Position numbers and translations under genes: made by a program. The notes below the pieces were generated by a model that saw nothing but the letters and a program-made list of their open reading frames with translations, had not been told where the DNA came from and did not search any database. Source: a virus. Taken from it: a stretch of 24,026 bases of DNA. Of the stretch, positions 9,313 through 24,026 are shown piece after piece; positions within the stretch are counted from its first letter, which is position 1; every line of letters starts with the position of its first letter. Where the stretch lies: the IMG/VR virus record IMGVR_UViG_3300047444_000331, positions 1 through 24,026 of that record, one strand, 5' to 3'.

Positions 9313-9372
9313 TCCGCAGTGCTGGTGGTTCTACCTAGCAGACGGGAACGACAGGGAAAAGGAACCGACCTG

Positions 9373-9516: not shown

Positions 9517-9526
9517 GGGGAAGAGA

Positions 9527-9832: not shown

Positions 9833-9836
9833 GACG

Positions 9837-9968: not shown

Positions 9969-10102
9969 AGTCCGCCGTGCAGCAAGTAGATGAGTGGCTC
10001 GCCGAAGCCGATTCAGATCAGCTGCGAGCTCTCATCAGCCACCTTACCGAGGGCAGCATAGAGGCAGCGGTGCTCGCCTACCAGTTCATCAGATCTAACT
10101 GA
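9965..10102 (+). CDS. Small helical protein, 45 aa
   Basis: GTG at 9965-9967 overlaps the previous stop by four bases (GTGA). The product MKSAVQQVDEWLAEADSDQL... is a helical acidic protein ending LAYQFIRSN at TGA 10100-10102. The same frame is open further upstream, to a GTG at 9896, but that would overlap the 43-aa gene extensively and is less likely. It is the last gene before the bidirectional hairpin at 10106-10146. No family is recognised. Confidence 0.5.
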   Translation: MKSAVQQVDEWLAEADSDQLRALISHLTEGSIEAAVLAYQFIRSN

Positions 10103-10105
10103 GAG

Positions 10106-10146
10106 AAGAGGCGCTCAGCCGTGAGCAGAGAGGCTGAGCGCCTCTT
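10106..10146. terminator. Bidirectional stem-loop terminator between convergent genes
   Basis: AAGAGGCGCTCAGCC (10106-10120) and GGCTGAGCGCCTCTT (10132-10146) form a perfect 15-pair stem with an 11-base loop. It lies between the stop of the plus-strand gene at 10102 and the stop of the minus-strand gene at 10151, so it can serve both. There is no long U-tract beyond the arms themselves; the outer base pairs AAGA/TCTT supply a short one on either strand. Confidence 0.75.
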
Positions 10147-10150
10147 GCTG

Positions 10151-10744
10151 TCAGCTGCTGAGTGACTGGATCAGGCTCTTCTTCGACTGAGCGGCGTCGA
10201 TGCCGCGCTCCTCGGCGATCCGGCGGAGCTCAGACACCGACATCCGTGAGAAGTCAGGTGGCGGGCTGCTGTCGCCCGTCTTCTTGGTGGGCGCCTGCTC
10301 CCACGTGTTCTGCGAGTCGGTTTGCGTGATGACTGGCGCATCATCAACCAGTACCATGCCGCACTCGGCGCAATACCGGCTGCTAGGCAGGTTGGCGTGA
10401 CCGCTCTTGCACAGCAGGGGCTGGACCGTCTCCTTCGGCCGGCTGAGCGTTCCCTCTCGCGAGATCCGCTCCAGCGCGAGGGCTGTGATCTCCTCGAGAC
10501 TGCGGTCCTTCTGCTTGACGAGGCTCTCACGCTTCGAGGTCTCGTCCGGTGTCTCCGGCACCGCATGCCGGGTTCCCGACCAGTGCGGGTCGTTGATGAG
10601 GTGACGTTCGCACTGCGGGCAGTTAAGCTCCCAGTTCAGATCCGGGGCACCGTGGGTCACCGGTCGCGTATGCGAGGCTCCACAGCCACCCTCAGCGGGG
10701 CTTACTGCGACGTAGACAACGTCCCGTCGCGGGTACAGGGTCAT
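10151..10744 (-). CDS. Zinc-ribbon protein with C-terminal SAP-like helix pair, 197 aa
   Basis: The N-terminal part has CGASHTRPV and NCPQCERHL (C21, C42, C45), and a second zinc-ribbon-like site lies at C112, H116, C125, C128 (CKSGHANLPSSRYCAECG). The last 30 residues (MSVSELRRIAEERGID...KSLIQSL) resemble a SAP or Rho-N-like helix-turn-helix that binds nucleic acid. The middle is a basic/acidic helix with HAVPETPDETSKRESL. The start ATG 10742-10744 is preceded by AGGGAGG at five bases. It is a minus-strand gene inside a block of plus-strand genes, so it could be read by late transcription from the right or from its own promoter. A regulatory or packaging-related role is possible; function is not assigned. 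Confidence 0.7.
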   Translation of the reverse strand: MTLYPRRDVVYVAVSPAEGGCGASHTRPVTHGAPDLNWELNCPQCERHLINDPHWSGTRHAVPETPDETSKRESLVKQKDRSLEEITALALERISREGTLSRPKETVQPLLCKSGHANLPSSRYCAECGMVLVDDAPVITQTDSQNTWEQAPTKKTGDSSPPPDFSRMSVSELRRIAEERGIDAAQSKKSLIQSLSS

Positions 10745-10761
10745 GCATTCCTCCCTAGGTG

Positions 10762-10790
10762 TTTACATTGATGAGATGTGCTGGTATGGT
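10762..10790 (+). promoter_or_regulatory. Strong sigma70-type promoter with extended -10
   Basis: TTTACA (10762-10767), exactly 17 bases, then TATGGT (10785-10790), with TGG immediately before the -10. The -35 has 5/6 and the -10 has 4/6 matches to consensus. It lies 33 bases before the ATG of the 55-aa gene and upstream of its AGGGAG site. It occupies the divergent gap (10745-10823) between that gene and the minus-strand zinc-ribbon gene. Confidence 0.65.
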
Positions 10791-10823
10791 CGTGGCTAAA
10801 GACGTGCATGAAGGGAGACTGAG

Positions 10824-10991
10824 ATGACTGAGATAACCGGGCGCCACGCTGTCTCATACCGAGGCAAGCACGAGAAGCCTGACAGCAGAGACGGTGAGAC
10901 GTACCGTGGGCGTCACCGCAAGCCCGTGTTCGAGGAGTGGCTTGACATCATTCGGCAAGAGCAGTTTCCTCGCCACACCGGGGGCAGGTAA
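10824..10991 (+). CDS. Small basic protein, 55 aa
   Basis: The ATG at 10824 follows AAGGGAGA by about six bases and the promoter at 10762-10790. The product (MTEITGRHAVSYRGKHEKPD... ending QEQFPRHTGGR) is rich in Arg, His and charged residues, with no membrane segment, Cys pair or recognisable family. Its last 44 bases overlap the 3' end of the convergent minus-strand gene 10948-11232. The combination of promoter, ribosome site and compact frame supports it, but its shortness leaves doubt. Confidence 0.5.
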   Translation: MTEITGRHAVSYRGKHEKPDSRDGETYRGRHRKPVFEEWLDIIRQEQFPRHTGGR

Positions 10992-11232
10992 GGCTCCAGC
11001 TGTTCCACAGCCGGCGGCAGGCACCGCACCAGCGTCCTGCCTTAGTGCCGAACGTCCAGCCCTCATTCAGGGAGAGCAGGCCGTTGTTGCTGCCTGTCCG
11101 TTTCGAGATGCTCATCTCTGCGGCATGGTGGTCGGCGATGCTGATGGCGGTACCCGGCTTGCCGGTGTACGTTGTGCCGTCGATCCTGGATGTCAGCCCG
11201 TTGCAGCCTAGCGGCAGCTTGACTCTCGGCAT
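10948..11232 (-). CDS. Zinc-ribbon hypothetical phage protein, 94 aa
   Basis: From ATG 11230-11232 (MPRVKLPLG), chosen because GAGG lies six bases upstream, the protein has a conserved-looking N-terminal half (NGLTSRIDGTTYTGKPGTAISIADHHAAEM) and a C-terminal four-Cys site C69-x2-C72-x10-C83-x2-C86 (WCGACRRLW ... CPRCG). The alternative start four codons upstream (11242-11244) is less well placed. This layout is familiar from small uncharacterised proteins of actinobacterial phages; function is unknown. The gene runs against the plus-strand 55-aa gene, overlapping it by 44 bases at the 3' ends. It belongs to the late-strand set, not to the plus-strand operons. Confidence 0.65.
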   Translation of the reverse strand: MPRVKLPLGCNGLTSRIDGTTYTGKPGTAISIADHHAAEMSISKRTGSNNGLLSLNEGWTFGTKAGRWCGACRRLWNSWSLTCPRCGEETALAE

Positions 11233-11248
11233 CTCACGCCTCACTGGG

Positions 11249-11277
11249 AATTAAGCAGCCGCAGCCGCAGTTATACT
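11249..11277 (+). promoter_or_regulatory. Weak promoter candidate for the 11311-13077 operon
   Basis: TATACT (11272-11277) is a good -10 (5/6), 33 bases before the ATG at 11311. The -35 at 17-base spacing is AATTAA, a poor match, and no extended -10 TG is present. It sits in the divergent gap between the 94-aa minus-strand gene and the plus-strand operon. Confidence 0.3.
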
Positions 11278-11310
11278 GAATGAAGGGAAACGGAAGAGAA
11301 GGGAACGAGA

Positions 11311-11460
11311 ATGCTGACCAAGGATCAGGCCGCAGCTCGCGCTTACGCATACCTGCTCGAGAATGAGCTGTACGACGCAGAGACGCTCGAGCAAGTCACC
11401 GACGACGAGCTGATCAGCTTCATGCAGTCCGAGGGGCAGGACCCGTACGCAGATGACTGA
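11311..11460 (+). CDS. Small acidic helical protein, 49 aa
   Basis: ATG at 11311 follows AGAAGGGA by about eight bases. The product (MLTKDQAAARAYAYLLENEL...) is acidic and helical, ending QDPYADD; the stop TGA at 11458-11460 is part of an ATGA overlap with the next gene. It resembles a short helical adaptor or regulator in composition only; no family is recognised. It opens the longest plus-strand operon in the window. Confidence 0.5.
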   Translation: MLTKDQAAARAYAYLLENELYDAETLEQVTDDELISFMQSEGQDPYADD

Positions 11461-11656
11461 TTTCAAGGCTGGCGACCGTATCCGCCTTGTCTTCACCGAT
11501 GACCCGCACACCAAACTGGAGCCAGGTGATACTGGCACGGTCATCAGCATCAGCAAGCCAACATCTATATCCCACAACGTCATCAACGTGAAGTGGGACA
11601 GCGGCAGCACGCTGAGCATGATCCCGGCTGCCGGAGACCGCATCGAGAAGATCTAG
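11453..11656 (+). CDS. DUF4314-like small SH3/KOW-type protein, 67 aa
   Basis: The sequence FKAGDRIRLVFTDDPHTKLE followed by PGDTGTVISI and VKWDSGSTLSMIPAAGDRIEKI fits the DUF4314 pattern: GDRxxLxxTDDPxTxLxPGDxGTV, then VxWDxGSxLxxIPGxD. It is a small beta-barrel-like domain common in actinobacterial phages and mobile elements; its function is unknown. The start overlaps the previous stop (ATGA), showing translational coupling. The motif match makes this one of the firmer family calls among the small genes. Confidence 0.8.
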   Translation: MTDFKAGDRIRLVFTDDPHTKLEPGDTGTVISISKPTSISHNVINVKWDSGSTLSMIPAAGDRIEKI

Positions 11657-11665
11657 GAGGCAGTC

Positions 11666-11911
11666 ATGGCGGAGAGCATCGTGCCGCCCATCGTGGAGAA
11701 GGCCTGCAAGCAGTGCGGTGAGCTTAAGCTCATGTACGCCGACCTGGCCATGTGCGATGACTGCATCGAGCCATTGCTGAGGATCATCTGGGGTGACGCC
11801 TACGACCGAGTGATCGGCCAGAAGGGTGTACTGCAGCCCATTCCATCGGCATCAGAGCCACCATCACGACCACAGAGAAACAACCGAGAGAGAAGGAGAA
11901 GGCATAAGTGA
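11666..11911 (+). CDS. Small zinc-finger-like protein, 81 aa
   Basis: The ATG at 11666 has AGGAGG five to ten bases upstream, just after the previous TAG. The N-terminal half has two CxxC pairs, C14-x2-C17 (CKQC) and C30-x2-C33 (CDDC), suggesting a zinc-binding fold. A helix follows (IEPLLRIIWGDAYDRVIG), then a disordered basic tail ending RERRRRHK. It overlaps the lipoprotein start by four bases (GTGA at 11908-11911). The family is not recognised; nucleic-acid or protein binding is possible. Confidence 0.65.
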   Translation: MAESIVPPIVEKACKQCGELKLMYADLAMCDDCIEPLLRIIWGDAYDRVIGQKGVLQPIPSASEPPSRPQRNNRERRRRHK

Positions 11912-12576
11912 AATTTAAGTCGGCGATCTTCGCCACTGCCGCACTGGCAGCGGTGGCGGGGAGTGCGGCACTCACTGGGTGTGGTGCGAGTGGCGGCAGC
12001 TACGATCACGCCCCCATGGCCGCTTATGGCCAGAACAACCAGTGCTACTACATCTACAACCCCGCGGAGGCAGCGGCGCTTGAGGCGCAAGGCCTTTGCG
12101 ACCCGAGCTGGGCCGCAGTGCGAGCGCCGGCAAGCTGGCTGGACGAGTATTACTACTACTACGACTCGCCGCTGTACTACAGCACATTCGTGCCGTCGCA
12201 GTACCGGACGGCCTACGTCAGGTCGTACGGGCCGAACTCCACGTTCTACCGTAGCAACCGGTCGGCCATCACCCGGCTGTCGAGCAGGGCCACCTACTAC
12301 AGCACCACGGGAGCCAAGGTCACCCACGTCACCGGCACCAGCCGGTTCGGGAGTGGCAGCTCATTCGGCAAGGCCGGCCAGACCTACGGTGGCGGTGGCC
12401 TGCGGCAGCGGACGGTCACGACGAACGGGCCAACGGCTCAGTCAACGTCACGCAGCAGCACAGTCAACATCCCCGGCACCAGTGGGTATAAGCCGACTGC
12501 CACACCGCCTGCCAAGCCGAAGTCAACCTTCGGCGGCGGATCACTACGCAAGACTTGCACGAAGAAGCCGTGCTAG
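11908..12576 (+). CDS. Secreted lipoprotein, Tyr-rich, 222 aa
   Basis: Residues 1-25 form a lipoprotein signal: MKFK basic start, an Ala-rich hydrophobic stretch and lipobox LTGC with C25 as the lipidated residue. The mature protein has a Tyr-rich segment (NNQCYYIYNP at about 43-52, then DEYYYYYDSPLYYSTF at 79-94) and a low-complexity C terminus rich in Ser, Thr, Gly and Pro (FGSGSSFGKAGQTYGGGG ... KPKSTFGGGSLRKTC). The GTG start overlaps the upstream stop and has AAGGAG nine bases before it. The product would be anchored outside the host membrane, which fits a superinfection-exclusion or host-surface 'moron' role, but no family match proves this. Next gene begins directly at its stop. Confidence 0.75.
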   Translation: MKFKSAIFATAALAAVAGSAALTGCGASGGSYDHAPMAAYGQNNQCYYIYNPAEAAALEAQGLCDPSWAAVRAPASWLDEYYYYYDSPLYYSTFVPSQYRTAYVRSYGPNSTFYRSNRSAITRLSSRATYYSTTGAKVTHVTGTSRFGSGSSFGKAGQTYGGGGLRQRTVTTNGPTAQSTSRSSTVNIPGTSGYKPTATPPAKPKSTFGGGSLRKTCTKKPC

Positions 12577-13077
12577 ATGGAGCACAGCCTCTTCGGCGCA
12601 TGGGCGGAGACGGCTGAGCGGTTCGCCGATGTCTTCGACGGCTCGGATTCCCGGGCCGTCGAGGCGTCTGCTCAGCAGATGGCCAGAGAAGCCGGCGGCA
12701 CCCTCTGGGTATGCCGCGTCTTCCGCGACGTCCACGTCCCAGTCGACACCTACACAAAGTTCATCGACCCGCGTGATGAACGGAACCTGGAGATCGAGGA
12801 CATCGAGCTCGATGTTCCCGACTTCCTGCACGACCACCCCCAGTGGCTGGTGCTTGGGTTCGCCTTGCCCAAGGGCGTGCCTATCGGGCACCCAGAGTTC
12901 GGCTGGACAGCTGAGCGGTATTCGGAATCTGTCTACGCACCATCCCCCCTGACCGCTGAGGATGCAGCACGCAGCCGCCTGGAGGACAAGGGTGCTGACT
13001 TTCTCGTTTGCTCAGTGCTGCCTGACTCGCCAGTGGCAGCCGACACCTACGCGAAATTCGCTGACTCAAACCGCTAG
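12577..13077 (+). CDS. Hypothetical protein, 166 aa
   Basis: ATG at 12577 directly follows the lipoprotein stop, with no clear ribosome site, so coupling to the lipoprotein gene is likely. The protein has an apparent internal repeat: GGTLWVCRVFRDVHVPVDTYTKFID (about 40-64) resembles the C-terminal GADFLVCSVLPDSPVAADTYAKFAD. This suggests two copies of a small fold. A Trp/His-rich middle (DFLHDHPQWLVLGFALPKG) separates them. No signal, membrane segment or catalytic motif stands out. It ends at TAG 13075-13077, just ahead of a strong hairpin. Function is unknown. Confidence 0.65.
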   Translation: MEHSLFGAWAETAERFADVFDGSDSRAVEASAQQMAREAGGTLWVCRVFRDVHVPVDTYTKFIDPRDERNLEIEDIELDVPDFLHDHPQWLVLGFALPKGVPIGHPEFGWTAERYSESVYAPSPLTAEDAARSRLEDKGADFLVCSVLPDSPVAADTYAKFADSNR

Positions 13078-13078
13078 C

Positions 13079-13119
13079 AGCTGAAGGCGCCGGAGGCTCG
13101 CACTCCGGCGCCTTCAGCT
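13079..13119. terminator. Bidirectional stem-loop at end of plus-strand operon
   Basis: AGCTGAAGGCGCCGGAG (13079-13095) and CTCCGGCGCCTTCAGCT (13103-13119) form a perfect 17-pair stem with a 7-base loop. It sits between the plus-strand stop at 13077 and the minus-strand gene 13114-13407, whose stop codon (13114-13116) lies inside the right arm. No U-tract follows on either strand, so termination may rely on the stem or another factor. Confidence 0.7.
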
Positions 13120-13407
13120 TGCTGTAGAGATAACCCAGTTGATGACGGCAGGCGTAGCCGTGCCGGCTCCGCGAACCCAGATCTGCTCCCCCGTAGAACC
13201 CGGGAAGCAGTTGATGGTGACAGCAGCACCGTTATTCAGAGTGAACCCGCTGACGCTGTTCGCGGTAGCGCTGCCGTTGGAGCCACCGCTGATGTAAGCC
13301 GGGGTCCCGCCTGAGTTGCTGATCGTCACCGAGCATGCCCCCGGTGGGATGATGAAGGCAGCTGATGCCGTCGCCGTCCCCGTTGAAGACTGCCCAAACG
13401 TGATCAC
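13114..13407 (-). CDS. Small beta-module protein (capsid decoration candidate), 97 aa
   Basis: The 97 residues are nearly all Ser, Thr, Gly, Ala, Ile and Val with alternating beta-like pattern: FIIPPGACSVTISNSGGTPAYISGG (about 18-42), FTLNNGAAVTI (55-65) and IWVRGAGTATPAVINWVIS (76-94). These match the module in the 128-aa and 177-aa neighbours (vxNxG, aYIGG, LpxGxxxti, lWaxxsaGt). It starts at GTG 13405-13407, one base after the previous stop, with GGGGAC upstream. Three such proteins behind the capsid gene point to virion surface decoration, by position and fold type only. Confidence 0.65.
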   Translation of the reverse strand: MITFGQSSTGTATASAAFIIPPGACSVTISNSGGTPAYISGGSNGSATANSVSGFTLNNGAAVTINCFPGSTGEQIWVRGAGTATPAVINWVISTAS

Positions 13408-13408
13408 C

Positions 13409-13942
13409 TTACGTCGTCCCCACGTTGACGTTGAGGTTGGTGCCAGACTGAGCGGTGATGGTCGTCACCGTGGCGCTGGCGTTGTGGTCGTACAGCAGCG
13501 GTGCCGACAGCGTGATCACCGTGCCGCTGGTGATTGTCGCGAAGGTGATGAACTCCTGCGCTGATCCCGCGCCCAGTGCCACCGTGCTGCCGGTGCCGAA
13601 TGACGCCACCGACCCAGCGAACGTCAGCGCCGTGCCACCAGCGGTGCCTGCGACTGAGATTGACGTCGATGGTGTCCCCGTCACAACACCGCCGCCGCAG
13701 CCCCAGATCGAGAAGTTGGCATTCGGCAATGTGATCTGCGCCCCCGGCGGCAGTGGGAATCCGCTTGACGGGGTCACGGAGCTGCCGCCGATGTAGGCGA
13801 AGCTCGACCCATTGTTGAAGATCACCGCGTGAGGTGTGCCGACGACCGCGGGGTTGTAGATCTTCGTGATCGGTGACTGAGCTGTGACAGGCGGGTCGAC
13901 GCCGGTAGAGGGTGAGCTGTGAGAGCCCTTAGGTGCCGCCAT
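13409..13942 (-). CDS. Two-module beta protein (capsid decoration candidate), 177 aa
   Basis: A Pro/Ser-rich leader (1-25) is followed by beta module A at about 39-80 (VIFNNGSSFAYIGGSSVT, FPLPPGAQITL, FSIWGCGGG). Module B lies at about 100-163 (AGGTALTFAG, then GSAQEFITFATITSGTVITLSAPLLYDHNASATVTTITA). Module A recurs in its two neighbours and in the 180-aa protein at 370-912; module B recurs in the connector and the tail tube protein. The start ATG 13940-13942 has AAGGAGA seven bases upstream. No enzyme motif is present. It is likely exposed on the capsid, but this is inferred from its position and composition. Confidence 0.7.
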   Translation of the reverse strand: MAAPKGSHSSPSTGVDPPVTAQSPITKIYNPAVVGTPHAVIFNNGSSFAYIGGSSVTPSSGFPLPPGAQITLPNANFSIWGCGGGVVTGTPSTSISVAGTAGGTALTFAGSVASFGTGSTVALGAGSAQEFITFATITSGTVITLSAPLLYDHNASATVTTITAQSGTNLNVNVGTT

Positions 13943-13975
13943 AGCGGTTCTCCTTCAGAGTCGCGCTAGAGAGGG

Positions 13976-14362
13976 TTAGTCCACTGCCACGACGGTGGCG
14001 AGACCCGCCTCGATGCTGGTCGTGCCCGCGGATGTGATGGCCCACAGGTTGAAGTTCGAGCTCGTGGCGCTGACCACCGCGGTGCCCTGGATCGTCAGCT
14101 GGAAGCCCGCAGGCAGAGCCAGGCTGGACGTGGTGGGGGTACCCGCGCTGCCGATGAAGGCGGTCGCGGTGCCGGTGTTGATGACGGTCAGGTTGCTCAG
14201 GATCGCACTCGCCGGGAAGGCGTAGAACGCGGTGCCCGCAGAGGTCACGACCGTGGCGCTGCCGGCGTTGTAGACCTGGACACCAGCCGCGGCGGTGCCG
14301 ACTGAGGTGCCAGCCGCCTGAGTGGACTGGAAAGCAGGCGGCGCCCCGTTGAAGATTGCCAT
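13976..14362 (-). CDS. Small beta-module protein (capsid decoration candidate), 128 aa
   Basis: Residues 1-57 are Ala/Thr/Ser-rich beta (MAIFNGAPPAFQSTQ, VQVYNAGSATVVT) and residues about 58-117 carry the shared module (LTVINTGTATAFIGS, LALPAGFQLTI, FNLWAITSAGTTSI). The start ATG 14360-14362 follows AAGGG and overlaps closely with the end of the glycosyltransferase gene. It is the first of three paralogous genes in a row. Ser/Thr richness and the adjacent sugar-transfer genes make it a plausible target of glycosylation; no direct evidence is visible. Confidence 0.7.
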   Translation of the reverse strand: MAIFNGAPPAFQSTQAAGTSVGTAAAGVQVYNAGSATVVTSAGTAFYAFPASAILSNLTVINTGTATAFIGSAGTPTTSSLALPAGFQLTIQGTAVVSATSSNFNLWAITSAGTTSIEAGLATVVAVD

Positions 14363-14364
14363 AA

Positions 14365-15072
14365 TTACCCTTTCAAGTGAGGGTCAGGACTGACCCGCTT
14401 TTTCCGAAGCAGCTTCTGTACCTTGGCCACATCGGTGTCCATCTTGTCGTGCCGCCAGGCTTGGTACGCCTGAGCATCTTCTGAGCCATACCGCTCAGTC
14501 TGCTGGTAAACCGTGTCGTACGCCGTGCTGGAGGTGACTGAGTAATGGTGATGAGGGATCAGCACACTTGAGCACAGCTTCAGGCAGCCCGCGTGCCTGC
14601 CGATGTCTGCCCAGGTGTTGTCGTTGTAGTAGTGCCTGAGCGTGGGCTGTGCGAACCAGCCCAGGGCCCTGACGATGTCTGTCGACACCAGCCAGTGCTC
14701 GGGGATGTCATTCCGTCGCCCGTTCTCCGGGTACAAGATGCCGGTGCCGCCCATGGCCTCGAGCTCAGCCATCATGATGCGGTCCCAGTCCTGCGTCTCG
14801 AAGACGCAGTCGTCACCCACGAAGAACAGCGCCTTGTAGTCAGGTGCCTGCTCATGTGCGACGGCATTCAGCTTGGCACCGAGCGGCAGCCAGTCGAGCA
14901 TCATGTGGCCGCGGACGCCTTCCGGCAGGATGATCCCGTCGTAGGAATTGTCATCCACGTCATGGATGAAAAGCATCTCCGCGTCGGCGGTCTTCTCCGC
15001 GAAGGAGGCAGTGCACCGGATGGCGTTCTCACGCCGGCCGCGAGCCGGCAGCAAGACCAGGAGGTCGCTCAC
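14365..15072 (-). CDS. GT-A-type glycosyltransferase, 235 aa
   Basis: The N terminus LLVLLPARGRREN resembles the first strand and P-loop-like start of family-2-like glycosyltransferases. The segment ALFFVGDDCVFETQDWD (81-97) gives the D-D metal/nucleotide-sugar motif (D87, D88) followed by the usual Trp. A later block (WLVSTDIVRALGWFAQP; HYYNDNTWADIG; LIPHHHYS) matches the acceptor-side part and a metal-binding His cluster (about 174-176). It transfers a sugar from an activated donor to an unknown acceptor. The GTG start overlaps the cytidylyltransferase stop (GTGA, 15069-15072), so the two are made together. The C terminus is basic (LLRKKRVSPD). Confidence 0.75.
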   Translation of the reverse strand: MSDLLVLLPARGRRENAIRCTASFAEKTADAEMLFIHDVDDNSYDGIILPEGVRGHMMLDWLPLGAKLNAVAHEQAPDYKALFFVGDDCVFETQDWDRIMMAELEAMGGTGILYPENGRRNDIPEHWLVSTDIVRALGWFAQPTLRHYYNDNTWADIGRHAGCLKLCSSVLIPHHHYSVTSSTAYDTVYQQTERYGSEDAQAYQAWRHDKMDTDVAKVQKLLRKKRVSPDPHLKG

Positions 15073-15485
15073 TCAGCCCGCTCCAGGACTCGCCGGCGGA
15101 TCTCCGTCGTTGAGATCGACATCGCCTGGACGTAGGGGACGTAGGCCAGGATGATCTTCTGCTCATCCAGCCAGTCCTGCGTCACGTCGATCTGAGCCAG
15201 GTAATCCTTCCGGGCCCAGTCTGACCCAATCGCCAGCACACTCGGCCGGACGCTGGCGATCAGCTCTCGCCCGGCTGAGGTGTTGAGCTGAGCTGAATAG
15301 CCGAACTGCCTGATGGAGTGCAGCCGCTCAGCCTGCGTCATGATAGGTGCCGGCTTGAACAACTGGACGAACTCGTCTGAGTTGACGCCGACCACGAGGC
15401 CGGAGCCGAGCTGTTCGCACTGCCGCAGGAAGGCGATGTGCCCGAAGTGAAGGATGTCGAAGGTGCCGATGGTCAGGACTCTCAC
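15069..15485 (-). CDS. TagD-type cytidylyltransferase, 138 aa
   Basis: MRVLTIGTFDILHFGHIAFLR contains the nucleotidyltransferase signature GTFDxxHxGH (G7-H16), and SISTTEIRRRV (123-133) is the C-terminal ISTTxI motif of the glycerol-3-phosphate/ethanolamine-phosphate cytidylyltransferase group. Length (138) fits these single-domain enzymes. They use CTP to activate a phosphorylated small molecule, releasing pyrophosphate; the substrate here cannot be told. The start GTG 15483-15485 has AAGAAGGG about eight bases upstream. It lies after the capsid gene and its hairpin, and is translationally coupled to the glycosyltransferase, so a virion- or host-surface-modifying pathway is the natural guess. 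Confidence 0.85.
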   Translation of the reverse strand: MRVLTIGTFDILHFGHIAFLRQCEQLGSGLVVGVNSDEFVQLFKPAPIMTQAERLHSIRQFGYSAQLNTSAGRELIASVRPSVLAIGSDWARKDYLAQIDVTQDWLDEQKIILAYVPYVQAMSISTTEIRRRVLERAE

Positions 15486-15562: not shown

Positions 15563-17398
15563 TTACGCGTATGGAGTGGTGTCCGACACCTGCAGGCCCT
15601 GGAGGATGCCAGAGTACTGCGGTGCGTGCGCCACCATGGCGCCGAACATGAAGATGGAGTAGCGGTAGGTGGCGTCGATGACCGGCCAGGCGATGGACAC
15701 GTAGTCCTGCACCATGGTCATCTCCCAGGCGTTGGCCACGTTCGACCACGTCTGCGGAAGCTGGTAGGTCATGAACAGGGCGGTGCCCTGAGTCAGCCAC
15801 GGGTGGACGACGAGCTTCAGGATCGACCGGGTGATCGGGTTCTGGAACTCGCTGACGGCGGCACCGACGGTCACGCCGTTGACGTCGCCCTGGTCGAGGA
15901 ACAGCCGGTAGTTCGTAGCCGAGCCCTGGCTGATCACGTCGTTCGAGAGGCGCATGATGTCGCCACCGTCACCGACGATCTCGCCCGGGTCAGCCTTGAA
16001 GGCACCGGGGTTGTTGCTGCTCGGGTTCTCCCACAGGGCGTCCAGCGCCGTGTAGATCGCCGCGTAGCTGAGGTGAGTGCCCACGTTCTGGTTGACGTAG
16101 CCACCCTGCCACGGTGACGGGTAGACGCCGGAGGCGCTCGACTTGCCGGTGAGGACGGGGACGATGCCCTCCATCCGGTTCGCCGAGCCGGTGCCGGTGT
16201 CCACCGTCGGCGGGTGAGTCGCCGGGGCGGCCAGGGTCAGCACGCCCTGGATGGTGAACCGGAGGCCACCAACACCCGAAGCGACCTTCCACAGCTGCGC
16301 GTTGGTCGGTGACGCGGCGTTCTCCGACACGTAGATGTTGTAGGACATCGCGCCGGGAACCGGGACGATGGTGACATCGACCACATTGGTGGTGCCGACG
16401 GTGGTGATGTCGGTCGACACCGCCGAGTTGAGCGTCTCACCCCAGTAGTTGACCGCGGTGACGGCCACGACGAAGTGAGCCGGAGAGCCACCGATCGCGG
16501 TCTCGTTGCTGCCGGCGGTACGCAGCGTGGTGGTGACCTGAGCCGGAGTCGCCAGGCTGGTGCTCGTCGCGGCGATCATCTGGTACTCCTCGCCCATCAT
16601 CATCTCCTGGAGGAGGATGAGGTTCGCGAGTGCCGAGATGTCCTCGAAGCCTTGGCCGGCGAACTGAGCCAGCCAGGACAGCTGCTCAGTGAGGCCGAAG
16701 AACTTGTAGGGGATGTTGAGCTGAACCTCGGTCTGGCTGCCGGAGCCAGGGAGGTTCAGCGGCCAGGTGCCGAAGTTGCCACCGGTCTGGACAAGCTCAG
16801 GAATCGAGATGTCCACGACACTCTGGCCGCCGGTCTGCGAGCCGGAGATGCCGGTGAACACCCGCTCGATGCGGCTGGTGCCCTGGCCCGGAGGCCGAGG
16901 CAGCTTGTTCCTGAAGACTGTGTAGACCGGGTAGATGAGCCGGCTCGGAGCCAGGAGGTCGAACGGCACGAGGCCGTAGATGCTCCCGATGCCCAGGTTG
17001 CCCGCGGTGAAGCTTCTCACCAGGTCGGGGCTGACCGCCCCGAGTGCCTGAGCGACTTGCTCATTGATCGACGGAGTCGACAGCGCGGTCTTGAGGTACC
17101 CGTGCTGGTCGAGGAAGGTGGGGTTGAGCCCCTTGACGACGGAGGCCCGGTCCGCGTAGCCGCGGTAGGTCTCGGTGCGAAGGTCCAGGGTCGCCTGGTG
17201 AGCCTTCGTCATGATCTGAGTCTCGTTGTTCAGCGGCGTGTTGCCGTTGCCAACGTAGCCAGCGCCCTTGACCATTGAGGTCATGCGAGCCTTCAGCATG
17301 TCGCCGGTACGGGAGTACCGGTTCGCTTCGGCCGCAGCCTGGCTCGCGACCTGGGCCGGCGCCGCTGGCGCGTCCAGATCGGGAAGCATTGCTGCCAT
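15563..17398 (-). CDS. Major capsid protein (HK97-fold candidate) with fibronectin-III-like insertion, 611 aa
   Basis: It directly follows the protease/scaffold gene, the standard position for the major capsid protein. Support: a long helical N-terminal arm (about 10-90), SYNSYGLVPFDLLAP-like segment at 138-150 (IYGLVPFDLLAP), a basic/aromatic strand with LIYPVYTVFRNKLPRPPGQG, an ISIPELVQTGGNFGTWPL stretch, and a C-terminal half ending WEMTMVQDYVSIAWPVIDATYRYSIFMFGAMV. Residues about 284-386 read as a fibronectin-III-like domain: HFVVAVTAVNYWGETLNS, then VPVPGAMSYNIYVSENAA. This would be a surface insertion, extending a length of about 350-450 usual for the family. The start ATG 17396-17398 has AGGAGA seven bases upstream. 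The fold call is from position and pattern, not alignment. Confidence 0.75.
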   Translation of the reverse strand: MAAMLPDLDAPAAPAQVASQAAAEANRYSRTGDMLKARMTSMVKGAGYVGNGNTPLNNETQIMTKAHQATLDLRTETYRGYADRASVVKGLNPTFLDQHGYLKTALSTPSINEQVAQALGAVSPDLVRSFTAGNLGIGSIYGLVPFDLLAPSRLIYPVYTVFRNKLPRPPGQGTSRIERVFTGISGSQTGGQSVVDISIPELVQTGGNFGTWPLNLPGSGSQTEVQLNIPYKFFGLTEQLSWLAQFAGQGFEDISALANLILLQEMMMGEEYQMIAATSTSLATPAQVTTTLRTAGSNETAIGGSPAHFVVAVTAVNYWGETLNSAVSTDITTVGTTNVVDVTIVPVPGAMSYNIYVSENAASPTNAQLWKVASGVGGLRFTIQGVLTLAAPATHPPTVDTGTGSANRMEGIVPVLTGKSSASGVYPSPWQGGYVNQNVGTHLSYAAIYTALDALWENPSSNNPGAFKADPGEIVGDGGDIMRLSNDVISQGSATNYRLFLDQGDVNGVTVGAAVSEFQNPITRSILKLVVHPWLTQGTALFMTYQLPQTWSNVANAWEMTMVQDYVSIAWPVIDATYRYSIFMFGAMVAHAPQYSGILQGLQVSDTTPYA

Positions 17399-17454: not shown

Positions 17455-20400
17455 TTACAGGCCACGCATCTTGCAGATTGCCGTCCAGGCAGCTTCCCGC
17501 TGCGCCGGGTCGGGTGAGTAGCGGAACTGCTCTTCCAGTTCCTTCATAACCATGACCTGAGTCCGCTCCGCGATCTCGGTCATGGACGGCATTCCCGCCG
17601 GGACTGCCGAAGCTTGTGGTGCGTACTGCGGTGGTGCCGGAGGCGTCATGGCGACGCCCTTCCAGGCACTGACGCGGGGGTCGGGGCCCTCTTCCAGGGC
17701 ACTGAACCTGTCCTCGTAGCTGTTGACGCGCTTGCGAAGCCGCTTGATCTCTGACATGAGATCCGTGGTGGCTTCCTCAACCGCTTCCATGACCGCGGCC
17801 TTGATGACGTCGGCGGACACGCCTGCCTCACCAGCTACGGCAGCCTTGGTGATCGTGTCATCAGCCGGGGCCTGGGCCTTAAGGATCTCATCGCGAGCAT
17901 CCTCTATGGTCATCTGGCCCTTCAGGACGAGCTTCTCGAGCCGCCCGACGAGATCGGTGACATCCACGCGCCGCTTCGCCTTCTTGGTCTTCCGCGCCGG
18001 TGCGAGCTCGTCAGCCTTCACCGCGTCGGGGACAGGGTTATCTGGACCTGACTGCTGCCCGCCCATCGGGCACAGGTCCGGGAATGTCTGAGCGATGTGA
18101 TCGTGCATCGCCTTCATCGCCTGCCGAGCGTTGTCGCGCTGCGCATTGGTGTAGAACCGGCGGCTGGCGTTGCTCGGCCGGCCGGCCGGGCCGGTGATCA
18201 TGTCCCCGCTGCCGGCCTTCATGCTCGGCACGTCTGGGCTAATCGGCGCGCCACCGAAGCCCTGCGAGTGAAGAGGTGCCGGGATCGAGTGACTGCTCGG
18301 TGAGTTGGCGGCGTGGCCGGCGGTCAGGTAACCGCGGCCGAACGAGGACGCGCTGATCTGGCCAGCAGGGACAGGGCCGGAGTTAGGCCCATCGTGCCCC
18401 GGCGATGGTGCGGCGTGGCCGGTGGTAAGGTACGGCCGGCTGAAGCGGCCCGGCGTGAATGGCGACTGCGGCGTCAGCCCCTGGCCAGGACCGGGATTCG
18501 CGTCACTGAAGGCCTTGTTCGCCTCGAGCTTGATGTCGAGGATGAGCTCAGGCTCAGCTGTCTTGAGGCAGATGGCCGCATCCCAGAGGTCCTGCGCCTT
18601 GATCGCATCAGCGATGGGAGCCGTCGCCGCCATGTCCATGGCGATGCGCTGCCACTCACTCGTGTCGATGAGGTCGGCGAGTGAGGCGTGGGGGTGGCTC
18701 TTCTGCGCCGCATCCGGCTCGAATGCCGGGCAGGTGAGGTCGTGGAGCGCCCCCAGCGAGGAGCTGACGCCGATGGCGCGGTGCCTCTTGGCCGTCTTCA
18801 TCTCGTAGTTCGAGTCCGGGTCCGTCGGCAGGCCGGCGTCGTGCTCGAAGTCCTCGATGTACGGGCCATCAGGCTCGCGGTGCTCAGGCACAGGCTCCGT
18901 GCCGTGGCCAACGGTCGGCTTGGCCGCCTTCATGTAGCTGGTTGGCTTGCCGTCGAGTGTGACGTGAGTCGCCTCGGAGACGGGCTTCTCATCACCGGCG
19001 AGTGACTTAGCGGGTGGTGACTCCTTGGGCTGCTTCTTGCCCTTCTTCTTCGGCCCGCCGGGAAGGATCTTCCGTCCCTTGGACGCCTTCTCGTCATCCT
19101 CGTCGTCGTCCGAGTCGTCCTTGCCGGAGTCCTCGTCCTCGTCGTCGTCACCAGCGGCTGGCTTCTTCTTCAGCCACGGCGGCATGGAGCCCTTGGCGGC
19201 GTCCAGGCCCTCATCCATGCCCTCGCCACTGTGGTGTGTGCCGGTGCCGTCATCCGAGTCGTCGTCACCATCCTCGTCGGCATCGGCGTCAGCGTCGGCG
19301 TCTTTGCCCTTGCCATCGTCCTTCTCAACGAGGCCTTCCAGGATCGCCTCACGGACGGCGTCACGCTCTGCCTTGCGCTGCGCCTTCTCAGCGGCGGCCT
19401 TCTCAGCCGCGGCCTCACCGGCACCCATGTTCCCGCTGCCCTTGCACTTCGGGCAGGTGACGTGGCCCTCACGGATCTTCCCGCTGCCGGTGCACAGCCG
19501 GCACGGAGGCGCGCCATCACTCTTCTCCGCCTCGGGCTCAGGGTCACTCTTCTTGCCGCTGCTGCCGTGGCAGTCAGGGCAGGTGACGTGACCTTCACGG
19601 ATCTTGCCGGAGCCACCGCACAGCTTGCAGCCATCACCGCCGTCGTCCTTCATCAGCAGCTGAGGCTGCTCATCCGCCTTCAGGCTCGGAGGCAAGTCGT
19701 CATCTCCCATTCCGAATTTCCGCTGCGCGATTGACCGGATCCGAGCCCGGACCGCACCGGGGTCGTCTGCGTGGTGAGCCAGGCTGGCAGCATCACTGAC
19801 GTCATCACGTGTCTTGATGGGGTAGGTCTTGCCGGGGCCAGCGAAGTCATCATCACTGACATCAGACACATCGCGGCCGCCGGAGTCGACGACGCGGCCG
19901 TCTTCGAGCTGCCGCTTCTCAACCGTGGGCCGCTTGCTCTTCAGGATCTTCTCGAGATCTGTCGGTGAGAACGAGATCTCGACGTCTTCAGGGAGCTCGA
20001 GGGTGATGATGCCGACGACTCCCTCACTCTTCTCGACCTCTTCCACCGACATGCCTGCCGCCTTGGCGACGACGTCACTGGCGCCGAAGACCTTGCCGCT
20101 GTACTCGGGATGGCCGTCGCTGCCAGCCGCCTTCACCAGCTGGATTCCGCAGTTTTTATTCGCCGGCCTGTCTACCAGGCTGATCTCCACGATCTGGCCG
20201 CCAGTGATGCGCCCACCGCGCGCAACGTTATCACGGACGATGACTGGCTTGGCGATGCCGACGCTGTAGGCCCGGAGTGCCCCCTTCGACACCAGGCGCT
20301 TGGCGACGGGCTCGATCACCAGGCTCTTCACCCACTGGCTGCCATCCGGCCCCGGCTCAGCGGACATCCCCACACCCGCTGGGTCACGCTGCGGGTTGTG

Positions 20401-21309
20401 CTGGACTCGGACGTTGCCGCCGGTGCTGAGCCACTCCTGGATCGCCTTGGCGCTGAAGTCGGGGTCAACGATCTGCTCATCAGAGTCGACGCTGCCGTCG
20501 GTCGCCTTGCCATAGACAGTAAGGTCGCCATCGGCGGTAGTCTCAATCTTCTCGATGGGGAAGTTGACGTAAGTGAGCTCGCCCGACCCTGTGAGTGTGG
20601 CAGCCTTCTCGAGGAGATCTGCGGTCATGATAACTGGTTCCTCCACTGCCTTTTTCGCTGCTTGAGCACTCAGTGACGCTGCCTGAGCCTTGAGGTCTGT
20701 GATCTGGCTTTCAACCGCCTTGAGCTTCGACCTCAGGCTGCTAAGGCCCGCCTGAGTGCTCGCGATCTGAGACGCGGTGCTGCTGCTTGATGAAGATGAC
20801 CTAGAAGACGAGCTGGAACCACTCCGCTGGCTGCTCGACGCGCTGCCACTCTGAGCTGCGGCGCCACTCTGAGATGATGAGCTGCTGCTTCGCGATGACG
20901 ATGCCGGCTTCTTCGAGCTGCCGCCGTGATGAAGCCGGTAAAGGCTTGACAGCTTCTCCTGCATCTGGTGGATCTGATGGCGCAAGCCGACGGCTCGCGC
21001 CTGCAGCTCCTTCACCTTCAGCCGAGCGCGGTGAGCCTCAGCTCGCAGCTGCGCCCTGGACATGGCCTGCCGCTTCTTGTCGTCCGTCTTGGCAGGCTCA
21101 TGCTTCTTCGGCGGCGGCCGGTGATGTGCCGGTGCGTGAGGGTGAGCCGACGGCTTGTGCGTCACCGGCTTCTTCGCCGGGTGATGAAGTGGCTTCTTCG
21201 GCTTCTTCTTTTTCTTCGGCGGTGGCTTCTGCTGCTGCTGCTGGTCACCGCTGCCGGTGGTCCACTGGCCGGTCACTGACCGCGGCTCAGCCGGGTTAAA
21301 TCCCGCCAT
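17455..21309 (-). CDS. Giant prohead-protease/scaffold-like multidomain protein, 1284 aa
   Basis: Domains in order: a basic His/Pro/Lys-rich N terminus with a Gln tract (about 23-75); a helix (80-125); a Ser-rich linker (131-178); a short coiled coil (180-220); a prohead-protease-like domain (about 230-395) with VQHNP (candidate catalytic H304), AYSVG (candidate S349) and VEISLVDRPAN (374-384). Then come a DUF6582-like FAGPGKTYPIKTRDDVSDA stretch (489-507), two DnaJ-type zinc motifs (561-582, 603-624), two acidic tracts (670-690, 721-740), two YLTxGHAAxSP repeats (about 955-1004) and a C-terminal coiled coil (1110-1210). The usual protease has about 200-300 residues, so most of this is extra, probably scaffold-like. 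Start ATG 21307-21309 with AGGTGAG at four bases. It would cut scaffold and capsid arms during prohead maturation. Confidence 0.75.
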   Translation of the reverse strand: MAGFNPAEPRSVTGQWTTGSGDQQQQQKPPPKKKKKPKKPLHHPAKKPVTHKPSAHPHAPAHHRPPPKKHEPAKTDDKKRQAMSRAQLRAEAHRARLKVKELQARAVGLRHQIHQMQEKLSSLYRLHHGGSSKKPASSSRSSSSSSQSGAAAQSGSASSSQRSGSSSSSRSSSSSSSTASQIASTQAGLSSLRSKLKAVESQITDLKAQAASLSAQAAKKAVEEPVIMTADLLEKAATLTGSGELTYVNFPIEKIETTADGDLTVYGKATDGSVDSDEQIVDPDFSAKAIQEWLSTGGNVRVQHNPQRDPAGVGMSAEPGPDGSQWVKSLVIEPVAKRLVSKGALRAYSVGIAKPVIVRDNVARGGRITGGQIVEISLVDRPANKNCGIQLVKAAGSDGHPEYSGKVFGASDVVAKAAGMSVEEVEKSEGVVGIITLELPEDVEISFSPTDLEKILKSKRPTVEKRQLEDGRVVDSGGRDVSDVSDDDFAGPGKTYPIKTRDDVSDAASLAHHADDPGAVRARIRSIAQRKFGMGDDDLPPSLKADEQPQLLMKDDGGDGCKLCGGSGKIREGHVTCPDCHGSSGKKSDPEPEAEKSDGAPPCRLCTGSGKIREGHVTCPKCKGSGNMGAGEAAAEKAAAEKAQRKAERDAVREAILEGLVEKDDGKGKDADADADADEDGDDDSDDGTGTHHSGEGMDEGLDAAKGSMPPWLKKKPAAGDDDEDEDSGKDDSDDDEDDEKASKGRKILPGGPKKKGKKQPKESPPAKSLAGDEKPVSEATHVTLDGKPTSYMKAAKPTVGHGTEPVPEHREPDGPYIEDFEHDAGLPTDPDSNYEMKTAKRHRAIGVSSSLGALHDLTCPAFEPDAAQKSHPHASLADLIDTSEWQRIAMDMAATAPIADAIKAQDLWDAAICLKTAEPELILDIKLEANKAFSDANPGPGQGLTPQSPFTPGRFSRPYLTTGHAAPSPGHDGPNSGPVPAGQISASSFGRGYLTAGHAANSPSSHSIPAPLHSQGFGGAPISPDVPSMKAGSGDMITGPAGRPSNASRRFYTNAQRDNARQAMKAMHDHIAQTFPDLCPMGGQQSGPDNPVPDAVKADELAPARKTKKAKRRVDVTDLVGRLEKLVLKGQMTIEDARDEILKAQAPADDTITKAAVAGEAGVSADVIKAAVMEAVEEATTDLMSEIKRLRKRVNSYEDRFSALEEGPDPRVSAWKGVAMTPPAPPQYAPQASAVPAGMPSMTEIAERTQVMVMKELEEQFRYSPDPAQREAAWTAICKMRGL
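18298..18447 (-). repeat. Repeated YLTxGHAAxSP peptide segments in the protease protein
   Basis: Residues 955-970 (RFSRPYLTTGHAAPSP) and about 989-1004 (SFGRGYLTAGHAANSP) share YLT-x-GHAA-x-SP with Arg/Phe before it, 34 residues apart, in a Gly/Pro/Ser-rich disordered region. The repeat may be a short linear interaction motif. Confidence 0.6.
19090..19302 (-). repeat. Low-complexity acidic tracts in the protease protein
   Basis: Codons for D, E, A and S make two acidic runs, residues about 670-690 (DADADADADEDGDDDSDD) and 721-740 (DDDEDEDSGKDDSDDDEDDE). The nucleotide sequence shows repeated GTCATCG/GTCGTC-type units on the plus strand that are likely prone to slippage. Confidence 0.75.
19432..19629 (-). 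repeat. Tandem DnaJ-type zinc motifs in the protease protein
   Basis: Residues 561-582 and 603-624 both read C-x-L-C-x-GSGKIREGHVTCP-x-C-x-G. Each copy has four Cys arranged as two CxxC pairs, and the 12 residues GSGKIREGHVTC are identical. Together they supply eight Cys, enough for two zinc sites. A 20-residue acidic spacer separates the copies. Confidence 0.8.
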
Positions 21310-21317
21310 GGACTCAC

Positions 21318-21533
21318 CTAGTCTTCGTCGTCGTCATTACGAGAGAATTCCGTGAAGATACGCGTCCGAGCAGCGAAGCTGCCGTCGTCAAGAGGCAGGA
21401 TGAATCCCTCTGAGCATGAGATGACGCCGTGCCTGACCTTCAGCTTCAAGCCAGCATCACTGCATGCCGTAAGCGCGGCTGCCGCCGTGGTAAGGAGATC
21501 TTTAGCTAGCTCTACCCGGTTTTCAGCTGGCAC
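21318..21533 (-). CDS. Small hypothetical protein, 71 aa
   Basis: A GTG start at 21531-21533 overlaps the 3' end of the upstream gene by 11 bases. The product (MPAENRVELAKDLLTTAAAALTACSDAGL...) has an N-terminal helix, a short beta core (KLKVRHGVISCSEGFILPLDDGSF) and an acidic tail (RNDDDED). The ribosome site is weak, so it probably depends on read-through coupling. I recognise no family. It lies nine bases before the giant protease gene, so it is part of the head operon. Confidence 0.6.
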   Translation of the reverse strand: MPAENRVELAKDLLTTAAAALTACSDAGLKLKVRHGVISCSEGFILPLDDGSFAARTRIFTEFSRNDDDED

Positions 21534-22653
21534 CGTGCAGGATGCTCATAGCCTCGTCGTTCGTCATGAAGTCGTCATCACCGGGGAACTTGCCAGATGA
21601 CGCCGCATCCATGATTGCCTCGGCGACGTCACTTGCGGTGTCGTCATCCACGCCGTGAGCAGTGAGCCTGCTGGCGATGAGTGCGGTAAGCTGCTCAGCC
21701 GGTGAGCTCTCTGATTTCTCGTTGAGCTTCAGCTTCCGGCGTCGCGTCATCTTCGTGTCTTTTGGCTTGCGCTTGATGGGTGGCCGTACCCCTGGCTTGC
21801 CGGTGTGAACCTTCCTAGAGCGAAGGTACTCGGCGACTTCCTTGACGATCTCCGGCATGCGGTCGAGCATAAGCGTCCCGACCGCCACCGCCGACAGCTC
21901 TTCGTGGCCGGTCGCGAACGCCAAGGCCACCGCGCCGGCGATCGCGGCGATCCGGATGCCGAGCGCCACCTTCGCATCTCGGTGAGCCTCAGCATGCATC
22001 TCCGCCGCTAGTGTGCTGATCTGCGACTGGAGAGACTTCATCTGATGGTCGGTGTACACCTTCGACTGGCGGTTGGTGTTAGCCACCGCACGCATCAGCT
22101 CTTCATGGCCGACATTCTCTAGGCCCGGCGTCTCATGAATGGCGCCTTCGCCTGTCTCAGGACCTCGGTTGAATGTCCGCTCACCTTCACGGAAGCCGAC
22201 ACGGACTCGCGTTGAGGTGTGACTGATGATGTGCCCTGTTCCCAGAGAAGGGTGATCCACCTTCGCATCTGGAACCGGGGTGCCGACGAACCGCCAGCCG
22301 TGGACGAAGCCTTCAGGGCCAACCTTGACCAGGCTGGCCAGCTGAGCGACAGTCATGGTGACCTTCCTAGCTGACGGAAAGACACCTATGCTACTGGCGG
22401 AATTATAATATCCATCAGCCTGGTACTGTCCACCTAGCTCACGGTACTTCTCACTGAGCTCACCTGTGTCAGCGCTGTAGTGGACGTACCCGTTCGAGGT
22501 GCCGGCCAGGTGCTGGTAGGCGGCAGCCGCCGACCCGGTGCGATGCACAACTGAGTCGGCGATGCTCTGCAGCGCCTTCGAGGAAGCTGTGAGCCTCCCG
22601 TCATCTAGCCGTATCGTGCCGAGTACTCCTGACTCGGTACTGGCGGTGATCAT
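21523..22653 (-). CDS. Head-operon protein with KVGPxGxxHGW motif and membrane segment, 376 aa
   Basis: Features in order: an N-terminal domain (about 1-60) with SGVLGTIRLDDGRL and SKALQSIADSVVHRTG ... SNGYVHY; the shared motif QLASLVKVGPEGFVHGWRFVGTP (104-126, written here in two parts: QLASLVKVGP, EGFVHGWRFVGTP); an SH3-like beta segment (HPSLGTGHIISHTSTRVRVGF, 134-154); a helical region (about 180-225); a hydrophobic helix (LGIRIAAIAGAVALAFA, 231-247); and a basic stretch (PPIKRKPKDTKMTRRRKLKL, 291-310). The start ATG overlaps the previous stop (ATGA, 22650-22653). Its role is unknown; it may be a minor head protein or injected protein. The family is not named. Confidence 0.65.
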   Translation of the reverse strand: MITASTESGVLGTIRLDDGRLTASSKALQSIADSVVHRTGSAAAAYQHLAGTSNGYVHYSADTGELSEKYRELGGQYQADGYYNSASSIGVFPSARKVTMTVAQLASLVKVGPEGFVHGWRFVGTPVPDAKVDHPSLGTGHIISHTSTRVRVGFREGERTFNRGPETGEGAIHETPGLENVGHEELMRAVANTNRQSKVYTDHQMKSLQSQISTLAAEMHAEAHRDAKVALGIRIAAIAGAVALAFATGHEELSAVAVGTLMLDRMPEIVKEVAEYLRSRKVHTGKPGVRPPIKRKPKDTKMTRRRKLKLNEKSESSPAEQLTALIASRLTAHGVDDDTASDVAEAIMDAASSGKFPGDDDFMTNDEAMSILHGAS

Positions 22654-24026
22654 GAGGCACGCACCTGAGCTAGTGTGTTCATCATCTGGTTGTGCCAGTC
22701 TTCGTGGCCCAGAGCCGCGAAGTCAGGCTGCAAGTCAGCTAGATTGCTTTGGAAGTTGTCCCACTCCTGCGGAGTGAAGCTTCCACCCGACAGCTGCTGT
22801 GAGAACTGGCTTTCAGGCTTCCACCCGTTGTAAAGAGACTCGCCGTGGTCAATCGGCACCGCTCTGTTGTCAGGCCCAATCAGCCAGTTTCCCTTGTTCC
22901 GGTCGATGTTGCTTGTCACCGCGTCGAGAAGCCCGATTCTTTTCCCATTCGGAGTGTCGTAGTACTTATCCAGGTTGGCGTTGTCACCTTCCAGCGCCTC
23001 CTTCTCTACCGCGGGAGTGCCGGGCAGCATCGGCTCCCAGATAACGGGATTGACGTCGCCTGGCTTCCACCCCGGCTCGAAGATGACTTCAGGCGCGTTA
23101 GCGCCGAGAGCGTCAGAGACTCGAGACGACAAGACCTCTCGGTCCTGGCTGATCATGCTGTCCTTCTTGCGCACCCACCGAGAGCCGTCATTGAATGTGA
23201 CCATCTTCGTCTCGCCCATGGCGCCCTCACCGGGCGCCTTCTCCTTAGCGATCCCTGATGCAAGGCCGTGAACCAGCTTCTTGGCTGTAACCTGCGCTTC
23301 CGGCCTGTCAGGCAGCTGGCTGCTACGTCCGGCCAGCTGAGCCCCGTTGAGCAAGTCTGAGTGGTAGTTGAGGACGAACGCCACATTACGAGCCGGGTGC
23401 TCCATCCCGGGAATGGGTGGGTCGCCGCCTCTCTCAGCTACCTGGTGAGCGGCGAGAGCCGCCGCATCCAGCTGCTTCCGAGCGCCGCGGATGTCCCCAT
23501 TCTGGATGGAGCTCGCCGCGCCCTTGAGCACATCGTGAACAGGCTTCGCCAGTGGGCTGTCGCCGACTGAGGCGTGGATGGCGTCGGCACTAGAAGAAAG
23601 GAAGTCAGCGTGCTCCTGGCTTCCCGGTGTGCCGTGGAACACCCAGCCGTGGGTGTAGCCATGAGGTCCGACCTTGATGACCTCCGCCAGTGCGCTTGCG
23701 TTCAGGAAGTCATCATCATCATCAAGGCTGAGTGACTTCCTCGTGCTGAATCGCGCGTTGGTAATCCGCCTCGGGTTACCTCCGAGGTGACGATTCCGCC
23801 AGATCTCAACGTCAGCTGGGTCGAAGTCGACGTCACCTTCTCGGAGTGAGATCCTGAGCTTGCCCTCTGGCGTCATGCTATGGTATTCACCCGCGACTCG
23901 CTTGCCGTTGTGATTGACATAGACGAGCTGCCCGCGCGATGCCGGCTCCTTCTTACGCCACTCTTCCGCATTTGCCACGATCTCATCGGGAGAAGGCAGG
24001 TCACCTCGCGCCCAGGCTCTCGGCAT
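22650..24026 (-). CDS. PI4-kinase-like/HipA-like protein in head operon, 458 aa visible (possibly partial at the 5' end)
   Basis: The window ends exactly at an in-frame ATG (24024-24026), so this may be the start or an internal Met; upstream sequence is not visible. N-terminal residues 32-75 form an SH3-like strand segment (GQLVYVNHNGKRVAG, LRISLREGDVDFDPADVEIW). The shared KVGPHGYTHGWVF motif lies at about 118-130. Residues 282-402 read as a kinase core: RWVRKK (candidate ATP-binding K287 or K288), REVLSSRV (candidate E298), AVTSNIDRNKGNWLIG with D375 and N380, then AVPIDHGESL with D393. The NxDRNxGNWLI plus IDHG arrangement is that of type II PI4-kinases and related HipA-like kinases. Substrate is unknown; cargo, virion or host-directed action are all possible. 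Confidence 0.65.
   Translation of the reverse strand: MPRAWARGDLPSPDEIVANAEEWRKKEPASRGQLVYVNHNGKRVAGEYHSMTPEGKLRISLREGDVDFDPADVEIWRNRHLGGNPRRITNARFSTRKSLSLDDDDDFLNASALAEVIKVGPHGYTHGWVFHGTPGSQEHADFLSSSADAIHASVGDSPLAKPVHDVLKGAASSIQNGDIRGARKQLDAAALAAHQVAERGGDPPIPGMEHPARNVAFVLNYHSDLLNGAQLAGRSSQLPDRPEAQVTAKKLVHGLASGIAKEKAPGEGAMGETKMVTFNDGSRWVRKKDSMISQDREVLSSRVSDALGANAPEVIFEPGWKPGDVNPVIWEPMLPGTPAVEKEALEGDNANLDKYYDTPNGKRIGLLDAVTSNIDRNKGNWLIGPDNRAVPIDHGESLYNGWKPESQFSQQLSGGSFTPQEWDNFQSNLADLQPDFAALGHEDWHNQMMNTLAQVRAS

Follow-up and report, generated by a model that had tools for sequence, protein, structure and literature searches.

We analysed a 24,026-base viral contig (IMGVR_UViG_3300047444_000331; this whole stretch is called the window here) and found that a protein encoded at its end, on the same strand as phage head genes, terminates in what is, as judged from sequence and a structural model, a complete PI3/PI4-kinase-like domain with all catalytic residues in place. 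We consider it probable that this protein is a catalytically intact phosphotransferase resembling type II phosphatidylinositol 4-kinases (PI4KII) and the Helicobacter kinase CtkA, and that it is produced along with the head proteins and travels in the virion as an effector. The analysis itself shows the kinase fold, the catalytic residues, the head context and its synteny, fusions to head proteins in other loci and a short tag (KVGPxGYxHGW) ahead of the kinase domain.

The kinase domain and its catalytic residues

Residue numbers follow the 458-residue reading of the open reading frame (ORF) at 22650-24026 (-). Because the first ATG of this ORF coincides with the contig's final codon, the true start of the protein may lie past the contig end and its N-terminus may be incomplete. 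The features of the kinase are:

22650-24026 (-): ORF of the kinase protein, 458 residues as read
22653-23261 (-): PI3/PI4-kinase-like domain, residues 256-458 (the C-terminal 203), from PF00454, AlphaFold2 and the Z score to PI4KII-alpha
23166-23168 (-): K287, predicted ATP-binding lysine in strand 3 (strand 28-33 of the model), invariant in 21 aligned domains
23136-23138 (-): E297, predicted glutamate of helix C (helix 36-52 of the model), Glu in 20 of the 21 domains and Asp in the L043 copy
22884-22910 (-): catalytic loop NIDRNKGNW (D375, N380), with D, R and N invariant in the 21
22842-22853 (-): metal-binding motif IDHG (D393) at the DFG-like position, with I392 and D393 invariant in the 21

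An initial annotation, made from the letters alone, had placed a kinase-like domain with a type II PI4-kinase signature at 22821-23183 (-), which corresponds exactly to residues 282-402. NIDRNKGNW and IDHG lie at the residues it gave and its candidate ATP-binding lysine (K287/K288) holds, but the glutamate it put at 298 is E297. The domain is also larger than proposed and forms one compact kinase over residues 256-458 in the model. Profile, structure and conservation agree with the type II PI4-kinase-like core and its intact catalytic residues, whereas HipA, named alongside, is a more distant match.

The resemblance to kinases goes beyond chance. In a profile search, the Pfam model PI3_PI4_kinase (PF00454) matched the whole window protein at E=2e-4 and the isolated domain at 6e-5. 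A viral-contig search with the full-length window protein returned no relatives. A tblastn search of phage genomes located the same C-terminal domain in gp82 of Microbacterium phage Pumpernickel, and domain-alignment searches seeded with this pair succeeded instead, giving 15 viral loci (partly redundant) and four bacterial loci. All 17 aligned domains (20-34% identity to the window) matched PF00454, and 16 of them matched the SCO1664 family model (NCBIfam TIGR03843) at E<=0.01; the window itself scored 18.7 bits against that model, far under the curated cut-off of 172.4. The best PDB matches of the domain profile were PI4KII-alpha (1e-6) and then PI4KII-beta, while a PDB search with the single window sequence gave a chance match alone. 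HipA_2 (PF20613) matched four of the 17 relatives, with no match to the window at E 0.01. PADLOC defence models likewise had no match to the window protein at E 0.01; about half of the relatives gave weak matches to candidate models.

Across 21 domains, K287, D368, D375, R376, N380, I392 and D393 are invariant. Mean column identity in this alignment is about 25%, yet every canonical catalytic and metal-binding residue is kept. This argues against the idea that the protein is a virion-associated structural or binding module that has a kinase fold and no catalytic role, which we regard as highly improbable.

Predicted fold and substrate class

The AlphaFold2 model of residues 256-458 (predicted local distance difference test 93.8, predicted template-modelling score 0.91) has the kinase-like order of strand 3, helix C, catalytic loop and metal-binding loop. 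A fold lacking a kinase core, which the initial annotation had named as grounds for rejecting its reading, did not appear. The closest solved folds are PI4KII-alpha and PI4KII-beta (4pla, 4hnd, 9hhm), which have the same bilobal whole-domain fold (Z 14.7, root-mean-square deviation 3.4, 193 residues) and the same K, E, DR...N, D catalytic set, and, tied with them, CtkA of Helicobacter pylori (3akk; Z 13.9). Lower matches are CotH, Fam20, PI4KIII-beta and HipA (Z 10.4); HipA, CotH and Fam20 kinases have the same atypical kinase superfamily fold, with Z from 10.4 to 11.9. In the viral library, structural relatives of the domain include proteins labelled portal and head morphogenesis, and the matches reach viruses of haloarchaea.

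The window domain is only about 14% identical to PI4KII. Unlike PI4KII, it comes from a bacterial virus, in a protein with an N-terminal phage tag and helical linker, and it has no cysteine-rich palmitoylation motif; cysteine is absent from the whole 458-residue protein, which leaves no PI4KII-type CCPCC membrane motif. CtkA, a compact kinase that its bacterium secretes as an effector, is equally distant in sequence (identity about 14%) and, unlike the window protein, is not phage-encoded and has no head association.

The ranking of PI4KII among solved folds raises the possibility of a lipid kinase effector, one that phosphorylates phosphatidylinositol in the host membrane. The actinobacteria Micromonospora, Microbacterium and Nocardia, hosts of several relatives, do contain this lipid. 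Nevertheless, CtkA, which ties with PI4KII in Z, is reported to be a protein kinase, the membrane motif is missing, and the structural matches include viruses of haloarchaea, organisms whose lipids differ; we therefore rate a lipid kinase as quite unlikely. Given that CtkA is as good a fit as PI4KII and that the protein lacks the membrane motif of PI4KII, the host substrate would more likely be a protein than a lipid.

Fusions to head proteins and effector domains

In five independent loci (L009, L011, L014, L017 and L021), the kinase domain and a head protein form a single polypeptide. The partner is Phage_min_cap2 in Micromonospora phage pMLP1 (L014; 1.7e-75), Phage_Mu_F in L011 and L017 (2e-19 and 2e-12), a head-morphogenesis protein in L009, and the prohead serine protease S78 together with a 2H domain in Sinosporangium (L021). 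Detection of the L014 and L009 minor-capsid fusions needed PF06152 and PHROG models, since the Pfam MuF model (PF04233) did not pick them up. ADP-ribosyltransferase domains also occur in the kinase proteins of L008 and L011, and in Pumpernickel the kinase domain ends a 2235-residue protein encoded one small gene after the portal. The head-association test covered the loci other than L006, L012, L013, L015, L016 and L023. In the window protein, with its possibly incomplete N-terminus, no head-protein fusion was detected. The fusions in the relatives suggest that these viruses load such kinases into particles for injection into the bacterium.

One bacterial locus offers a different setting. In Nocardia seriolae (L020, 3246-16630 (+)), the domain is part of a giant protein with a weak match to a papain-fold toxin and a WXG100-domain gene adjacent, which suggests a secreted bacterial toxin domain. 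Drawing on the phage head fusions and this toxin-like setting, we regard the kinase domain as a predicted effector-like module that in phages is repeatedly tied to the head.

A separate arrangement was noted in L015 (4920-8594 (+)), where a 1224-residue protein reads as a Nudix-like N-terminus followed by three tandem kinase-like repeats.

Synteny with related contigs and divergence of the kinase

Downstream of the kinase gene, on the same strand, the window encodes the next ORF (ORF2), a small ORF, a protease-like protein and the major capsid protein:

21523-22653 (-): ORF2, 376 residues, with a tag and a hydrophobic stretch; its homologue follows the kinase in contig G018 (E=1.7e-19)
21318-21533 (-): small ORF, 71 residues; a 104-residue ORF is at the same place in G018
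17455-21309 (-): head-protease-like protein, 1284 residues (phrog_21715, 5.8e-15; phrog_3270, head maturation protease, 0.0016; PF00684, 1.3e-4)
15563-17398 (-): major capsid protein, 611 residues (phrog_13692, 9.5e-60; homologue annotated 'major head protein' in Alicyclobacillus phage MMB025, E=1e-8)

Farther downstream come genes for a neck/tail-completion-like protein and for a tape measure. The window yielded no terminase, portal or MuF gene; these presumably lie beyond the contig. The initial annotation was right about the head-gene context, and slightly loose in putting the kinase just upstream of the protease, since two ORFs lie between them.

The order kinase, ORF2 homologue, small ORF, protease and capsid is common to the window and G018, a contig of 95.7 kilobases (kb) in which the interval from protease to capsid holds two small tagged ORFs and then two further ORFs. 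The other side of the G018 kinase encodes a portal joined to an ADP-ribosyltransferase of the Arr type, a MuF protein fused to an ADP-ribosyltransferase and a NUDIX domain, and at least one more tagged ADP-ribosyltransferase protein. This gene content hints at what lies past the edge of the window. The kinase is thus encoded with head genes of the portal-terminase class by which polyvalent and MuF effectors are recognised: protease and capsid in the window, portal and MuF in G018.

Such arrangements bear on whether the protein is virion-borne at all. It could be an early or late intracellular phage kinase that merely sits beside head genes, like T7 gp0.7 in principle, and in L006, L012, L013 and L016 no head-protein fusion was detected in the same protein. 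Direct MuF, minor capsid and head-morphogenesis fusions in several independent loci, and the retention of the G018 kinase between effectors and protease/capsid, argue against this, and we hold an intracellular role to be very unlikely.

Identity to the window differs strongly between these genes. The capsid is 76% identical in G018 and 69% in G017, whereas the kinase is 28% identical in G018, 31% in G017 and 34% in G024. The protease is 35-59% identical in the longer matched blocks (47% over 417 residues in G018). On these sequence comparisons, a kinase that diverges far more than the capsid is consistent with host-directed conflict. G022, which has a window-type capsid, showed no kinase, though the viral contigs compared are fragments and this record may be one.

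A kinase that acts on the virion itself, phosphorylating capsid, scaffold or portal during assembly as a morphogenesis factor and not an effector, would account for the position of the gene directly among head genes and for the L021 fusion to a head protease. It accounts less well for neighbours and fusion partners that are mostly host-directed enzymes (ADP-ribosyltransferases, 2H, NUDIX), for the divergence from the capsid or for G022, and we judge it unlikely. Of the two roles raised in the initial annotation, injection into the host appears favoured over capsid modification because relatives share a polypeptide with MuF, minor capsid or head-morphogenesis proteins and adjoin ADP-ribosyltransferases.

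A tag common to the kinase protein and other head-region proteins

The kinase protein and ORF2 have in common a 24-residue segment, KVGPxG[YF]xHGW:

23622-23693 (-): tag ALAEVIKVGPHGYTHGWVFHGTPG of the kinase protein (alignment; family of 27 tags; E=3.3e-15)
22273-22344 (-): second copy QLASLVKVGPEGFVHGWRFVGTPV, in ORF2 (alignment, whole-contig scan)

A search with the tag returned 13 loci (L024-L036), and in the 27 aligned examples G, G, H and G are invariant. Whole-contig scans counted 20 tags in G018, 20 in G020, 16 in G021 and two in the window; no contig has them on both strands. In G018 they span 62-94 kb, with the capsid at 57-58 kb. The tags are N-terminal or interdomain in their proteins, among which are the portal-Arr fusion, the MuF-ADP-ribosyltransferase protein and the kinase (also in L041-L043).

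Look-alike glycine-rich tags (GHxFHGNQW, KYSEDQARDxHGRF, GGGRF) occur at equivalent places in other phages with this kinase, where they start or punctuate head-region proteins (L012, L013, L016, L005, L019, L008 and L011). A variant, EPRSVTGQW, is found at the N-terminus of the window protease-like protein (21247-21309 (-)). Nine look-alikes were observed against 0.29 expected; the regular expression was written after some had been seen, so this ratio is descriptive. A literature search gave no relevant mention of the tag or look-alike strings.

It is conceivable, at somewhat less than even chances, that the tag and its look-alikes (GHxFHGNQW, RDxxGRF/GRW, GGGQF) form a portable capsid-loading or processing signal for an arsenal of injected enzymes, the kinase being one item of cargo. 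Alternatively, the tag may serve as a linker, as a portal or scaffold docking site, or as a joint prone to recombination at which effector domains are shuffled. If it does direct loading, sequence alone could identify injected effectors in uncultivated phages, and laboratory systems could place reporter enzymes in capsids. The tag may be more novel, or of wider interest, than the kinase itself.

Two proteins of L042 also contain tags. One (11772-15485 (-)) is a portal fused to an Arr-type (rifampin) ADP-ribosyltransferase with a weak ParB-like match and tags between; the other (7582-11775 (-)) is a MuF protein with NUDIX and ADP-ribosyltransferase exoenzyme domains and two tags.

Proposed mechanism and points against it

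In the mechanism that we propose, the kinase would be produced late, together with the head proteins, and its N-terminal part, which holds the tag and a helical linker, would bring it into the procapsid. From there the kinase at the C-terminus would pass into the host along with the phage DNA and phosphorylate a host target, most likely a protein, in an ATP-dependent manner early in infection.

Several points weigh against a virion-carried effector kinase. The PF00454 score of the window (21.8-23.5 bits) is under the curated cut-off of 27.1 bits, which several relatives exceed (for example L017 41.8, L018 38.7 and L005 38.2). The contig end may cut off the N-terminus of the kinase protein, and no second enzymatic domain was found in that protein. 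Its head-gene neighbours could merely reflect co-regulation or insertion, and the fast divergence of the kinase may equally mean recombinational replacement or relaxed constraint. For every member found, we infer packaging, injection, activity and substrate.

Relation to known effectors

ADP-ribosyltransferases and other enzymes are known or proposed to be injected with phage DNA. In MuF toxins and polyvalent proteins, effector domains (among them ADP-ribosyltransferase, 2H, ParB and metallopeptidase domains) are joined to portal/MuF head proteins or encoded alongside them, and injection with the DNA has been proposed (PMC5512222; PMC3482391; Jamet et al., 2017, PMC5576092). As kinases of this kind, Iyer et al. 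(2017; PMC5512222) describe zeta-like kinases and an S/T/Y-type group that has no C-lobe, and Zhang et al. (2012; PMC3482391) add a toxin kinase of the lantibiotic-synthetase type. The main-text passages searched on these effectors contained no kinase of PI4K or HipA type. Relatives of the kinase studied here have in common with this class their fusion to head proteins and their ADP-ribosyltransferase neighbours.

Literature searches on phage PI4-kinases gave nothing relevant, although the search on the Pfam family returned just general phage papers and is weak evidence of absence. Some viral proteins already carry automatic PI3K/PI4K labels in public tables. The best reading is that the class of head-associated injected effectors is already known and that the PI4K-like kinase is a new domain for it. 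A PI4KII/CtkA-like kinase that several phage lineages fuse to their head proteins or encode beside them would bring a whole new enzyme class, easily assayed, to this repertoire.

Other observations

Cultured-phage searches with ORF2 and with L017 gave no match. The 1284-residue protease-like protein (17455-21309 (-)) has stretches of DnaJ-type CxxCxGxG zinc fingers and long acidic regions of low complexity. The capsid gene is followed directly by a nucleotidyltransferase-like and a glycosyltransferase-like gene (14365-15485 (-)).
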